Below are positions 18,986 to 57,345 of a stretch of DNA of 64,000 nucleotides, piece after piece. The first letter of the stretch is position 1. Each line of letters starts with the position of its first letter. Under the pieces are notes generated by a model, which was not told the DNA's origin, did not search any database, and worked only from the letters and a program-made list of their open reading frames with translations. The position numbers and the translations under genes are program-made. Origin of the DNA: Gemmatimonas phototrophica (lineage in GTDB: Bacteria > Gemmatimonadota > Gemmatimonadetes > Gemmatimonadales > Gemmatimonadaceae); assembly GCF_000695095.2 (NCBI RefSeq), contig NZ_CP011454.1, positions 930,001 to 994,000 of the forward strand, given 5' to 3'.

Positions 18986-19120
18986 GAAGACTGCAAACTG
19001 ACAAGTCGAACTGACAACTGAAAACTCCTACTGACCACTGAAAACTCGTGAGCCGCAGGCGAGTGGTCAGTTTTCAGTTTGAGTTGTCAGTAATCAGTAT
19101 CAGTTGTCAGTTCTCAGTCC
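18986..19120. repeat. Palindromic AACTGAN heptamer repeat (family I)
   Basis: The left half is built from AACTGAC/AACTGAA/AACT-type heptamers. The right half carries the complements (TTCAGTT, GTTGTCAGT) around a short unrelated centre. The strand can form a long imperfect hairpin. It lies between two convergent gene ends (18979 and 19130), where a bidirectional terminator would be expected. Confidence 0.75.
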
Positions 19121-19259: not shown

Positions 19260-21485
19260 TCAGCCTCCCCAGCCAAGGGCGGTACCGCCCGCGTACACGA
19301 TCCAGGCGGCAACGTACGCGAGCACCAGCATGTAGCCGAACTGAATCGTGGCCCATTTCCACCCGAGCGCGCCGCCACCGGCCTCGCGCACGGTAACGGC
19401 AACCGTGCTGATGCACATGAGAGCGAACACGTAGAACACCATGAGGCCAATGGCCACCAGCGGCGTGTACACGCGCTGCCCGGTGACCGGGTTGGTTTCG
19501 GCGACCAGCTTCTCCGTGAGTGCCGCTTCGTTCTCGCTGCCGACGCCGTAGATGGTGCCCATGGTGGACACAAATACTTCACGGGCGGCGAAGGAGGCAG
19601 CGATGGAGACACCAATCTTCCAATCGTACCCCAGCGGGCGCACTACAGGTTCAATGGCGTGCCCGATTTGCCCCAGGACGGAGTGTTCGAGTTGTTGTTC
19701 CTGCTGCGCTTCGGCGGGGAGTGACGCGTCCACGGCCGACTTGGGGTAGGTGGCCATGGCCCAGAGCACGATGCTGAGCGCCAGAATGACGGTACCGGCG
19801 CGGCGCAGGAACAGCTGACAGCGTTGCGCCACACTTACCAGCAGCGACCACGCGCTGGGCAACCGGTAGGGGGGCAGTTCGAGAATCATGGGGCGCACGG
19901 GCCCCTTGAGGAGCGTGCGCTTGAAGATGGCGGCCACCGCCAATGCCGCCACCGTGCCCAGCAGATACATGCCCAGCATCGTGGCGCCCTGCAGCGTGAG
20001 TCCCGGAATGAGCGACGTGGCGGGGACAAACGCACCAATGAGCAACGTGTACACGGGGAGCCGCGCCGAACAGCTCATGAGTGGCACCACCATGATGGTG
20101 GCGAGGCGGTCCTTGGGATCTTCAATGGTACGCGTCGCCATCACCCCCGGCACCGCACAGGCATAGCCGGAGAGCATGGGAATGAAGCTTTTCCCGTGCA
20201 GCCCCACCGTGCGCATGATGCGATCCATGAGGAACGCCGCGCGCGCCATGTACCCCGAGTGCTCAAGCAGCGTAATGAACGCGAAGAGAATGGCGATCTG
20301 TGGCAGAAAGACCAGCACCGAACCCACGCCACCAAACACGCCATCGACGACGAGCGATTTGAGATCGCCGTCGGCCATGCGGTCACCCACCGCGCCACCC
20401 AGCGCACCTATGAGCACCTCAATGCCGTCCATGAGTGGTGTCGCCCAGGAGAAGACCGCCTGGAAGACGACCGCCATGAGCACGAGAAAGATGACCGGCC
20501 CAAGCACCCGGTGCAGGGCGATGCGGTCAATCTGATCGCTGAGGTTCTGCTTGATGGTGCGAGGGCGGGACACCGTACGTTCAATGACTCCCGCAATCCA
20601 CGCGTACCGCACTTCGCTTTCGAGGCGATTGGGGGTGAACCCGCGGTTCTTGAGCGTGGCCATGGCATCCTGGATCTGCACCTGCAGCTGGGGCACGGTG
20701 ACCAGATGCGGTTCACTCTTGCTGACGCTGAGCAGCCGGAGCGCTTCCATCCCGGCGGCAGTCGGCGTGAGTCCGGCCTCCACCAGGCAGCTCTTGAGCG
20801 GCGCGAGGGCGTCTTCCACGTCGGCAGGGAGCACAAACTTGCGCGCCGGGGCCGGGAGGGAGGCGGCGGTAATCAGGGCCCGCTTGAGCGGATCGAGTCC
20901 TTCGCCGCGCTTGGCCACGGTGGGCACAATGGGCACGCCCAGCTCGTGAATGAGCTCCGGCACATCGATCGCAATCCCTTCGTCCTGCGCGACATCAAAC
21001 TGATTCAGCGCAATGACGACCGGGATGCCGAGCTCGAGGACCTGACTGGCGAGAAAGAGATTGCGCTCGAGGTGGACGGCGTCGATGACGACGAGGACGA
21101 CGTCGGGGGTCCACCGGTCGGCGTCCCGGTGCAGGAGCACTTCGAGTGCCACCTGTTCATCGGGCGACCCGGCGGACAGCGAGTAGCTCCCGGGCAGGTC
21201 GAGGACCGTAATGCGGCGGCCGTCGGGGCCCTTGAAGCCGCCTTCGACTCGCTCGACGGTGACACCGGCAAAGTTGCCGACGCGCTGGCGCAGCCCGGTG
21301 AGGGCGTTGAAGAGCGTCGTCTTGCCGGTGTTGGGGTTGCCAATGATGGCGACCCGCAGCAGCTCCTGGCGGCCGTCGTGACGGGCTTCAGTCGCGACCG
21401 GCGTGGTGCTGTCGGTCGGGGAAGGTTGGATAGTCGTCACGGGGTTGCGAGCGTGTGTCGCTGGAGGATCGCGACACGGGGCCAA
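19260..21485 (-). CDS. feoB: Ferrous iron transport protein B
   Basis: The protein is 741 residues from a TTG at 21485, or 726 from the in-frame GTG at 21440, which is also plausible. An N-terminal GTPase domain has G1 GNPNTGKTT, the switch segment VGNFAGVTVE, G3 DLPGSYSL and G4 NQFD. A helical insertion domain and the membrane domain follow, with the paired gate motifs FLPQIAILFAF and PMLSGYACAVPG. FeoB imports Fe(II) across the inner membrane. It follows feoA by 18 nt and precedes the Cys-rich peptide. Length is usual. Confidence 0.95.
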   Translation of the reverse strand: MAPCRDPPATHARNPVTTIQPSPTDSTTPVATEARHDGRQELLRVAIIGNPNTGKTTLFNALTGLRQRVGNFAGVTVERVEGGFKGPDGRRITVLDLPGSYSLSAGSPDEQVALEVLLHRDADRWTPDVVLVVIDAVHLERNLFLASQVLELGIPVVIALNQFDVAQDEGIAIDVPELIHELGVPIVPTVAKRGEGLDPLKRALITAASLPAPARKFVLPADVEDALAPLKSCLVEAGLTPTAAGMEALRLLSVSKSEPHLVTVPQLQVQIQDAMATLKNRGFTPNRLESEVRYAWIAGVIERTVSRPRTIKQNLSDQIDRIALHRVLGPVIFLVLMAVVFQAVFSWATPLMDGIEVLIGALGGAVGDRMADGDLKSLVVDGVFGGVGSVLVFLPQIAILFAFITLLEHSGYMARAAFLMDRIMRTVGLHGKSFIPMLSGYACAVPGVMATRTIEDPKDRLATIMVVPLMSCSARLPVYTLLIGAFVPATSLIPGLTLQGATMLGMYLLGTVAALAVAAIFKRTLLKGPVRPMILELPPYRLPSAWSLLVSVAQRCQLFLRRAGTVILALSIVLWAMATYPKSAVDASLPAEAQQEQQLEHSVLGQIGHAIEPVVRPLGYDWKIGVSIAASFAAREVFVSTMGTIYGVGSENEAALTEKLVAETNPVTGQRVYTPLVAIGLMVFYVFALMCISTVAVTVREAGGGALGWKWATIQFGYMLVLAYVAAWIVYAGGTALGWGG

Positions 21486-21503: not shown

Positions 21504-21788
21504 TCAGGCGCGCGCGGAGACAGGCTGGACGGTGATGCCCGCAGTGAGGGCGGAGCCGAGCGCGAGGCGCGTCCCGCGCACTTCGAGGAGCATGGAGTCC
21601 CGGGCGTCGATGATATTGACGGCGGTGCCTTCACAGAGGCCGAGCGCGCGGAGGCGACAGGCTTCATCACCGGAGCACTCGATATCAATGACGGTGGCGC
21701 GGGTTCCGGCGCGACAAGCGCTCAATGCGCACGTGGTGCGCGGAGCGAGGTCAGCGGGCTGGAGCGTAGGGAGGGAAGCCGAGCGCAC
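21504..21788 (-). CDS. feoA: FeoA-domain protein
   Basis: The 94-residue cytoplasmic protein has an SH3-like FeoA domain over about residues 30-92, with CRLRALGLCEGTAVNII and DSMLLEVRGTRLALG. FeoA is an accessory of the FeoB iron transporter. Translation starts at a GTG. The N-terminal 25 residues precede the domain and contain two cysteines. It is the first gene of feoA-feoB and lies behind a consensus-like promoter and a Fur-type palindrome. Confidence 0.9.
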   Translation of the reverse strand: MRSASLPTLQPADLAPRTTCALSACRAGTRATVIDIECSGDEACRLRALGLCEGTAVNIIDARDSMLLEVRGTRLALGSALTAGITVQPVSARA

Positions 21789-21855: not shown

Positions 21856-22022
21856 TGGGGAATTGGGTGGTCGGCATTGATACCGTATAGAGGTCTGCAA
21901 CTGCGGTTCGGGGAACGGCAACCGCGGTTCGGGTTTGGACCTGCCACGGCAGTCTTTGGACAGCCACTGCAGGTGTGGACTGCCACTGCAGTTGAGGAGC
22001 ACGGCGGTTTGGGTTTCTGCGG

Positions 22023-22056
22023 AACGTGCCGCCCGGCTTCGCCTGGGCGGCACGTT
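22023..22056. terminator. Strong GC hairpin in the array centre
   Basis: AACGTGCCGCCC and GGGCGGCACGTT pair perfectly over 12 bp around a TTCG-containing loop. The T-tract is weak on both strands, so it may be a terminator or simply a structural hairpin. Confidence 0.5.
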
Positions 22057-22112
22057 CTTGGTGGTTGATGTACCAGCCACTGCAGTGGTCGTAAGGAAGC
22101 CACCAAAGGAAT

Positions 22113-22140
22113 GCGCCCGCCCGGCAAAGCCGGCGGGCGC
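22113..22140 (-). terminator. Likely terminator of the tgt-lgt operon
   Basis: GCGCCCGCC-C-GGC and GCCGGCGGGCGC pair with one bulge around AAA, with GGAA/TTCC extending the base. On the minus strand the hairpin is followed by ATTCCTTTGG, a modest T-rich tail, about 110 nt after the lgt stop. Confidence 0.6.
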
Positions 22141-22248
22141 TTCCATACAGACCCCAACTGCGGTGCACCTCAACTGCAGTGGAGGTCCACAACTGCGGTG
22201 GCAGTCCAGAACTGCAGTGGCAGGTCTAAACCCGAACCGCGGTTGCCG

Positions 22249-23067
22249 TTACACGCTACGCCGACGTCCAACCATCAGCGCCACCCCGATCGAGCCAATC
22301 GTCAGCGCGATGATCTGGGCCGTGGTCAGCCCAATCGTGAGGGCGTCGTCCTTGGCGCGGAAGAACTCGACGATGAAGCGCTCGATACCGGCGGCGATGC
22401 AATAGGCGCCAAAGAGCCAGCCGTCCTTGTGGGTGTGCTTCCGGAACCGCCACAGGATGGCAAACATGATGAATCCCATGATGGTCTCGTACAGCTGGGT
22501 GGGATGCACGGCCACCACATCGGTCGGGTTCGTGCCGGCCGGAAAATCGACGCCGAACTGCGAGCTCATCACGGCGACCGTGCTGGGGGGCGCGCCCTCA
22601 GGGAACTGCGTGGCGAAGAACCCGTTGAAAGGGCGCCCGTAGTCGTCGCCCACGGCCCAGCAGCCGGTACGTCCTACCGCGTAGCCAGCCGCAATGGCAA
22701 TACCTGCCACATCGGCGATACGCAGGAAATTGAGCTTCTTGTACTTGATGGTGGCCCAGCAGAGCGCCACCGACCCAATGAAGCCGCCCCAGAACACGAA
22801 GCCGCCGCGGCTGAAGAACGCGCCGGGGTCGCCGGTGAGCACCACGTAGTAGGTCTTGGCGCCAATGAGCGTACCAATGAGCGCCGCCATCACCACATCG
22901 GGAATGGCATCGGCCTCGCGGTCATGGCCTCGTCGCCACAGCTCGCGCTGACAGACGATCTGCGCAATGGCAAACGCGGCCAGCACGGCCAGCCCGAAGC
23001 CGGTGAGTTCCAGCGGGCCAAGGTGAAAGACCGTGGGGTGGTGCTGTATGGGAAAAAGCATCGTCAA
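22249..23067 (-). CDS. lgt: Prolipoprotein diacylglyceryl transferase
   Basis: The 272-residue multi-pass inner-membrane enzyme transfers diacylglycerol to the lipobox cysteine of prolipoproteins. The family signature appears as GRTGCWAVGDDYGRPFNG, with GGFVFWGGFIG upstream and HPTQLYE downstream. Its likely clients in this window include the dppA-type lipoprotein. The start overlaps the tsaD stop by 4 nt. It is the last gene of a long minus-strand operon, followed by a hairpin terminator. Confidence 0.94.
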   Translation of the reverse strand: MTMLFPIQHHPTVFHLGPLELTGFGLAVLAAFAIAQIVCQRELWRRGHDREADAIPDVVMAALIGTLIGAKTYYVVLTGDPGAFFSRGGFVFWGGFIGSVALCWATIKYKKLNFLRIADVAGIAIAAGYAVGRTGCWAVGDDYGRPFNGFFATQFPEGAPPSTVAVMSSQFGVDFPAGTNPTDVVAVHPTQLYETIMGFIMFAILWRFRKHTHKDGWLFGAYCIAAGIERFIVEFFRAKDDALTIGLTTAQIIALTIGSIGVALMVGRRRSV

Positions 23068-30356: not shown

Positions 30357-30420
30357 CACTGCCTGGGCCGTGCGGTGGCTTGTGGCGTTCCACTATTGCC
30401 GGCGTCTGGGCTGACACCGC

Positions 30421-30638
30421 TGAACGGCATTACGAGGACTGGTCCGTGTATTCGGACAGGGCGTCTGACCGAGGACGGCGACGGTGTGAGCGACCGGCAC
30501 TCTCCACCTCCGCCAGTTCAACATTTTTAAAGATTGAACACACTGGCCGCAGCAGTACGCCGCCTGACTCATGCCGGAACCAGTCCTCGTTTGGACGCCC
30601 TGTCCGCGACATCGGAGCAGTCCTCGGTTGGCAGTTCC
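30421..30638. repeat. Structured ~217-bp element, copy 1
   Basis: This copy is nearly identical (two differences over about 219 bp) to copy 2 lying 260 bp further on. It carries nested complementary segments: TTACGAGGACTG with CAGTCCTCG at the ends, GGACAGGGCGTC with GACGCCCTGTCC inside, and an inner hairpin GCCAGT..ACTGGC. The right end differs from copy 2 (CGGTTGGCAGTTCC instead of CGTAATGCAGTTCA). The gap 30346-30924 between tgt and queA holds both copies and no recognisable gene. Confidence 0.8.
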
Positions 30639-30680
30639 AACCCGGCTCGCGATTCGCACCGGTGCTTGGGCTGGCACCGC

Positions 30681-30898
30681 TGAACGGCATTACGAGGACT
30701 GGTCCGTGTATTCGGACAGGGCGTCTGACCGAGGACGGCGACGGTGTGAGCGACCGGCACTCTCCACCTCCGCCAGTTCAACATTTTTAAAGATTGAACA
30801 CACTGGCCGCAGCAGTACGCCGCCTGACTCATGCCGGAACCAGTCCTCGTTTGGACGCCCTGTCCGCGACATCGAAGCAGTCCTCGTAATGCAGTTCA
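30681..30898. repeat. Structured ~217-bp element, copy 2
   Basis: This is the best-formed copy. Its ends GCATTACGAGGACTG and CAGTCCTCGTAATGC are perfectly complementary over 15 bp, extended by TGAAC/GTTCA. Inside are GGACAGGGCGTC/GACGCCCTGTCC (12 bp), CGAGGAC/GTCCTCG, and a hairpin GCCAGT-TCAA / TTGA-ACTGGC around an AT-rich loop. It ends 26 bp from the queA stop. Confidence 0.82.
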
Positions 30899-30924
30899 AC
30901 GGGGCCCGTGGTACACCCCACACG

Positions 30925-38531: not shown

Positions 38532-38668
38532 GCACTGTACAACTGATGACTGAAAACTCGAACTGACAACTGAAAACTTGAACTGTACACTGAAAACGTC
38601 CGCGCCCGAAGAAGTAGTCAGTTTTCAGTTGGAGTTGTCAGTTGTCAGTTGAAGTTTTCAGTCTTGAG
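38532..38668. repeat. Palindromic AACTGAN heptamer repeat (family I)
   Basis: ACTGAAAACTCG/AACTGACAACTG units on the left are matched by CAGTTTTCAGTT and GTTGTCAGTT on the right, with a centre of about 20 bp. It lies between the permease and the M28 peptidase, which point the same way, so here it precedes a gene start. Confidence 0.75.
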
Positions 38669-38692
38669 TTTCCTCCTTCCCTCGAATCGCCC

Positions 38693-40332: not shown

Positions 40333-40469
40333 AAAACTGGAAACTCATGACTTGCACTGACAACTGACGACTCCTACTGATGACTGAAAACTCCCGGCAG
40401 TCCGCCAGACGTTCTCAGTTGCCAGTTCGAGTTTTCAGTTTTCAGTTCGAGTTCTCAGTTGTCAGTTCC
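40333..40469. repeat. Palindromic AACTGAN heptamer repeat (family I)
   Basis: CACTGACAACTGACGA and ACTGAAAACTC on the left face GTTCTCAGTTGCC and GTTTTCAGTTTTCAGTTCG on the right. It fills the gap between the convergent ends of the M28 peptidase and ruvA genes. Confidence 0.75.
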
Positions 40470-51191: not shown

Positions 51192-51246
51192 AATCGCAGA
51201 CGGCGTAGCGGCCAGCCTGAATTGCCGGTACAGAGCCGGCTCCGCG

Positions 51247-51463
51247 CAACTGCATTACGAGGACTGGCCCGTGTGGTCGGACAGGGCGTCTCGACGAGGA
51301 CTGTGACGGTGGAGGCGACAAATACTCGCCACCTCCTCAAGATCCACAATCGAAAATAATGAACAACCGTGCGGCAGCAGTACGCCGCTCGACTCATGCC
51401 GGAGGCAGTCCTCGTTGGACGCCATGCCCGCCACATCGGAGCAGTCCTCGAAAGGCAGTTGCA
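51247..51463. repeat. Structured ~217-bp element, copy 3 (diverged)
   Basis: It aligns without gaps to copies 1 and 2 over at least 150 bp, at roughly three-quarters identity. The ends are GCAACTGCATTACGAGGACTG and CAGTCCTCGAAAGGCAGTTGC, so the outermost TGAAC/GTTCA pair of copy 2 is here CAAC/GTTG. Inside, CGAGGACTG pairs perfectly with CAGTCCTCG. It fills most of the 324-bp gap between the convergent GNAT and tyrS genes (51192-51515), which has no recognisable gene. Confidence 0.8.
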
Positions 51464-57210: not shown

Positions 57211-57345
57211 AACAACTGACGACTGAAAACTCAAACTGAGAACTGACAACTCGTACTGTGAACTGAAGACTTCCTACGGTCCGCGGGAGTTTTCAGTAGT
57301 CAGTCTGAGTTTTCAATTCTCAGTTCGGGTTGTCAGTACTCAGTG
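57211..57345. repeat. Palindromic AACTGAN heptamer repeat (family I)
   Basis: ACTGACGACTGAAAACTC and AACTGAGAACTGACAACTCG on the left face GTTTTCAGTAGTCAGTC and GTTTTCAATTCTCAGTTCG on the right. It lies between the convergent HNH and DUF4390 genes. Confidence 0.75.

Follow-up and report, generated by a model that had tools for sequence, protein, structure and literature searches.

A modular inverted-repeat family at gene ends in Gemmatimonas phototrophica and its possible role as a two-directional transcription stop

Structure of the element between lgt and feo

The gap between lgt and feoA is occupied by a long inverted repeat, element A (Table 1), in the window analyzed here, a stretch of 64,000 nucleotides of the Gemmatimonas phototrophica genome. 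Pfam searches confirmed lgt, FeoA, FeoB and TsaD. The right edge of the element (22250) adjoins the lgt stop codon, and its left edge is positioned ~110 bp from the feo promoter region, in which a TGAGAACCATTCTCA box, conserved across the genus and a probable iron-regulator site, is found at about 21800 upstream of feoA. An earlier note on this DNA had proposed that the repeat insulates a ten-gene lgt operon from the iron-regulated feo promoter, and it does lie between the end of lgt and that promoter.

Table 1 Positions of element A, neighboring genes and related features. Coordinates are those of the window unless a genome and contig are given.
Feature	Position	Strand	Basis
Element A, full-length copy	21915..22250	none	nhmmer score 365, HMM positions 2-336 of 337
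Left arm, array of ~20-bp units around ACTGC(A/G)GT	21915..22021	+	repeat and motif scan
GC hairpin 1 (GAACGTGCCGCCC..GGGCGGCACGTTC), then TTGG	22022..22057	+	13-bp perfect arms
Central hairpin GGTGGTTGAT..CCACTGCAGTGG..AAGCCACC	22060..22104	none	consensus columns 155-160 / 235-240, 99.5% paired
GC hairpin 2 (GCGCCCGCC..GGCGGGCGC)	22108..22145	-	consensus helix 10, 95.7% paired
Right arm, unit array inverted, up to lgt stop codon	22146..22250	-	81% identity of oriented tails
lgt, prolipoprotein diacylglyceryl transferase	22249..23067	-	Pfam LGT, E 8.7e-51
feoA	21504..21788	-	Pfam FeoA
feoB, after feoA	19260-21485		Pfam FeoB
Family B, AACTGACAACTGAAAACT-like words, 105-130-bp hairpins	19008-19113, 38541-38670, 40356-40466, 57215-57344
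Family C, inverted-repeat arms GAGGACTGG..GGACAGGGCGTC	30417-30906, 51246-51462
Conserved half-element	G000:C1:141954-142125; G006:C5:83150; G009:C282:74; G018:C199:58036
Locus of 23S rRNA-intervening-sequence-type gene between two element A copies	G000:C1:3663571-3664672 (L087); G006 L244; G018 L263		PF05635 in G. phototrophica

The repeat had been described in the earlier note as two near-reverse-complementary arms of ~95 bp built from ~20-bp units, with about 15 palindromic sites. Inverted arms of such units are indeed observed, as an outer pair (45 nt, 91%; 21909-21953 / 22211-22255) and an inner pair (77 nt, 78%; 21957-22033 / 22132-22208), though each arm is ~105 bp long and the count gives about 12 units. 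Across the 64-kb window there are 11 matches to the unit MACYGCRGTK against 2.2 expected, and 9 of the 11 are inside element A. The two terminator-like GC hairpins that the note had seen between the arms are present (22022-22057 and near 22112-22142), and the combination of unit arms with two GC hairpins bears out its view that the layout is more than a simple terminator. GC hairpin 1 is terminator-like toward rightward transcription and GC hairpin 2 toward leftward transcription, i.e. for lgt. The left arm (21915..22021) folds into a hairpin by itself, and the two oriented tails at this site, one for rightward transcription and one for lgt, each fold strongly alone. As single-stranded DNA the whole copy gives a fold of -164 kcal/mol (z = -14.8), which none of 100 shuffles equaled in stability and which is the most stable of the entire 64-kb window.

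The anatomy is common to the family. Alignment of 44 full copies exhibits one order of parts, namely unit arm, hairpin 1, central hairpin, hairpin 2 and inverted unit arm, and the GC hairpins differ in sequence from copy to copy with their pairing kept: the stem of GC hairpin 1 is altered on both sides in many copies, and compensatory changes are found in 5 of 8 pairs of GC hairpin 2 (consensus helix 10). Over the whole structure 95.6% of cells are paired compared with 91.7% in shuffles, with 27 doubly changed pairs compared with 16.5, the shuffles being uncorrected for relatedness. For the outer stem alone, with relatedness likewise uncorrected, the figures are 95.7% compared with 93.3% and 16 doubly changed pairs compared with 10.6. 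When single arms were folded against shuffles, z was below -2 for 25 of the 44 left arms and for 35 of the 44 right arms.

The stability of the fold and the pairing of the outer stem, including its 16 doubly changed pairs, would also fit selection on the entire 335-nt stem, whether as a cruciform in DNA or as a giant RNA hairpin; read-through of convergent genes might, for instance, yield dsRNA or a substrate for RNase III. This is very unlikely given how the arms resemble one another. Among G. phototrophica copies, left arms are 0.805 identical to other left arms and right arms 0.804 to other right arms; left and right arms are 0.799 identical between copies and hardly more alike within a copy (0.812; not significant), and in the other genomes the corresponding values are 0.832 and 0.858. 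The arms are thus one module used twice and interchangeable across copies, and most arm pairing is observed because both arms are that same module, which weakens the case for the cruciform raised in the earlier note. Furthermore, the internal terminators would stop transcription of a full stem. Capture of the inner hairpins from a local ancestral terminator was considered for the ferredoxin site (G013 compared with G018) and dropped, because the core is shared with copies at other sites.

A repeat family placed at gene ends

An nhmmer profile built from G. phototrophica's own copies detected 11 full copies of ~335 bp in the single-contig genome (4,716,552 bp), together with several fragments; the window copy is 79-90% identical to the other 10, and the flanks of the copies are unrelated to one another. 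The earlier note had allowed that the array might be unique, that it might not be conserved at this site in relatives, or that it might be a collapsed assembly region. The genome scan for further unit clusters disposes of the first concern, while the second is correct, as discussed below. An assembly artifact was rejected, since flanks are unique and the same element is found in four separate assemblies. Full families of about 10-12 copies each are found in only 3 of 60 related genomes (G006, G009 and G018). A single degenerate copy is present in G013; in G001, G004 and G023 similar units form arrays, with the full element absent. An end motif gave a single outside match, in a Gemmatimonas MAG. 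Element A matched no Rfam family at the gathering threshold, and we found no description of it in the literature. The G. phototrophica genome also contains two type-II reaction-centre genes.

Partial and compound forms are also observed. Four species share a half-element reaching the centre (HMM about 2-174) at one site, a palindrome of two inverted right halves lies at G000:C1:206632-206869, and in three species two copies flank a small gene whose product is of the 23S rRNA-intervening-sequence type.

Gene-end statistics were taken from the 64-kb window and from 20-kb samples of four further regions, 400 kb in all, with genes called by a simple home-made codon-usage caller and comparison gaps of at least 40 bp. 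Convergent gaps hold about 30 of the 44 full copies, though copies at orthologous sites are non-independent, and for this reason the figure for G. phototrophica alone is the fair one: 7 of 11 full copies compared with 25 of 210 sampled gaps (12%; p about 7e-5). The median distance from element edge to flanking stop codon is 8 bp (n = 73), with 80% between -1 and 24. Element A is an unusually large, modular gene-end repeat that fills convergent gaps from stop codon to stop codon. Exceptions are one site in a divergent gap (G. phototrophica 601 kb and the G009/G018 equivalents) and several copies in tandem gaps, among them the lgt copy.

Dispersal at gene ends leaves unsupported the locus-specific protein-binding array, cruciform or chromosome-structuring site that the earlier note had suggested. 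In its general form, a dimeric protein bound to ACTGCNGT palindromes would bridge or constrain DNA domains. The many closely spaced palindromic units would suit such binding, as would the lack of copies in 0.95-3.1 Mb, a stretch expected to contain the terminus region. We nonetheless consider it highly improbable, in that the units are variable (ACTGCAGT, ACTGCGGT, ACCGCGGT, ACGGCAGT) and other hairpins at the same kind of place, in G. phototrophica and relatives, are built from unrelated words. Repeats in general are, moreover, reported to avoid the terminus domain: a 2024 study of G. phototrophica counted 86 repeats outside this domain and 4 inside it (PMC11237797). Element A, with no copies in 0.95-3.1 Mb, resembles these repeats and is probably among those counted, as far as can be judged from the main text of that study, which gives counts and size classes and in which the words hairpin, terminator and convergent are absent.

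Variation among relatives at the same sites

The sites where element A is found carry other hairpins in related species. At the convergent ferredoxin site a 360-bp element A is present in G. phototrophica, G018 and G006; some 20 other species have a gap of 20-195 bp (mostly 50-125), usually with a GC hairpin, and among the word-built forms there are arms of CTCCCTG words in G005 and G016 and a hairpin of CCCCAAAC words in G022. The distance from the lgt stop to the feo iron box is 436 bp in G. phototrophica; relatives lack element A there and have 64-132 bp, apart from G016 and G009, whose gaps contain inverted repeats built of other words. Element A at lgt is a lineage-specific gain. Between the convergent MSYG and 377-aa genes G018 has element A and G. 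phototrophica a 27-bp gap with unit remnants, and therefore losses occur too.

Sequence relationships among copies are largely non-orthologous between G. phototrophica and the other three genomes. Among G006, G009 and G018, likeness is 0.905 for copies that share a site and 0.77 between sites, so that inheritance is site-wise over short times; the G006 copy at the RQLP site clusters with the copies of a different site and seems to be a single recent replacement. Between G. phototrophica and these genomes, same-site copies are 0.761 alike, compared with 0.815 for different sites within G. phototrophica. Site-wise descent forced on all seven shared sites costs a delta lnL of 383 and was rejected jointly by the AU test; single-site AU tests rejected it for five of the seven, the exceptions being the ferredoxin and SKSF sites. 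This pattern reflects either concerted evolution or repeated insertion. Judged from these relationships, gene conversion between sites would best explain sites common to several species with sequences homogenized within species, with repeated insertion as the rival.

Repeated insertion forms part of a broader alternative, that element A is a non-autonomous mobile element (MITE or REP-like) inserting at terminators or just after stop codons. Termination would then be a by-product of tolerated insertion sites, and the clustering of G. phototrophica copies would reflect lineage-specific bursts with re-insertion at the same targets. Element A does have inverted terminal repeats and dispersed copies at unrelated sites, as MITEs have, and it was gained at lgt and lost or fragmented at other sites; REP repeats likewise are placed beside convergent ORF ends (PMC3733652). 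However, no Y1/RAYT transposase was found in the G. phototrophica genome, no copy lies beside a recognised transposase among the contexts inspected, and very strong targeting would be required for 7 of 11 identical sites to be struck independently in two lineages. Searches of phages, plasmids and viral contigs gave no match, and an origin in such elements was rejected. No target duplication is visible at lgt (compared with relatives) or at the MSYG/377-aa site (compared with G018; unit remnants remain there). We consider a mobile element rather unlikely.

Comparison with known repeats and the proposed role

Comparison with described repeat classes identifies partial similarities. REP repeats and BIMEs are palindromes tagged with GTAG or CGTC, with proposed roles in termination and mRNA stability, and convergent REPs lie <20 bp from both stop codons (PMC3733652). 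Element A shares with them extragenic palindromic units in head-to-head pairs, dispersed beside gene 3' ends and mostly between convergent or co-directional genes near stop codons. It differs in being a ~335-bp composite, in which unit arrays enclose a pair of GC hairpins with a centre between them, whereas REPs are 20-40-bp hairpins often accompanied by a RAYT transposase. Inspection of the 44-copy consensus by eye found no constant GTAG or CGTC at the ends of the ~20-bp units, and RAYT (Y1_Tnp, PF01797) had no match in the G. phototrophica genome, with positive controls; as both tag and transposase were not found, element A was not assigned to the REPs. The ERIC repeats of enterobacteria are about 127 bp long and contain neither unit arrays nor twin terminator hairpins. 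ERIC/IRU sequences resemble element A as interspersed, intergenic, long imperfect palindromes that are presumably transcribed, and are set apart from it by description, in length and sequence. A further parallel may be drawn with bidirectional intrinsic terminators between convergent genes, which element A matches in position, in GC-rich hairpins (1 and 2) conserved as structure, and in the replacement of ordinary terminators at the same site, while differing from them in having two separate hairpins instead of one, long unit arms and weak T-tracts, and in being dispersed and homogenized as a family.

The best-supported function, which we regard as fairly probable from the arrangement and conservation described above, is that of a two-directional transcription stop with a shared 3' tail at gene ends, probably with protection of the mRNA 3' end as well. 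Each copy comprises one directional module used twice, head to head, with a small hairpin in the centre. Within a module the palindromic ~20-bp units come directly behind the stop codon and the GC-rich hairpin follows, so that each of two convergent genes would transcribe its own module first and both mRNAs would receive the same tail of unit-array hairpin and terminator hairpin. At lgt, element A would end the lgt operon ahead of the feo promoter. On this reading the element has replaced or expanded ordinary small terminators that most relatives still keep and has reached new gene ends, lgt among them, and copies within a genome are homogenized, most simply through gene conversion between sites.

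Three observations fit the two-way stop less well. An intrinsic-terminator scan (≥5 T in 8) detected no T-tract at the hairpins of element A; the copies in divergent and tandem gaps are located where a two-way stop is not needed; and the half-elements at G. phototrophica 141954-142125 and in three relatives present their centre first relative to the upstream gene, the reverse of what the simple module reading implies. Should the copies set mRNA ends, one 3' tail undergoing concerted evolution would be common to many unrelated genes, and the idea that gene conversion both spreads REP-like repeats and keeps them alike could be tested directly in a cultured phototroph for which transcriptome data exist.

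Element A is accompanied by other gene-end repeats. All four family B hairpins of the window are at gene ends, and three of them lie between convergent genes, with about 38 places found genome-wide; family C, also at gene ends, is found at about 33 places (non-overlapping matches for both families), often two or three in a row with ~260-bp spacing. Among gaps sampled in five species, long inverted repeats are present in 15 of the 48 that are convergent, in 22 of the 257 that are tandem and in 1 of the 76 that are divergent. We tentatively raise the possibility, for which the odds are somewhat against, of a genome-wide gene-end system in Gemmatimonas, in which terminators would be repeatedly replaced by lineage-specific, word-built hairpin tails, several families per genome, and rewritten in concert by gene conversion; many unrelated genes would then have one evolving 3' tail in common. 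Gene-end inverted repeats with arms of up to 220 bp are also observed in other Gemmatimonas (G029 L155-L159; G004 L165-L168), where the words include ACCCACAACCC, ACTCGGAACTC, CTCTGCG, GCCCATG and others.
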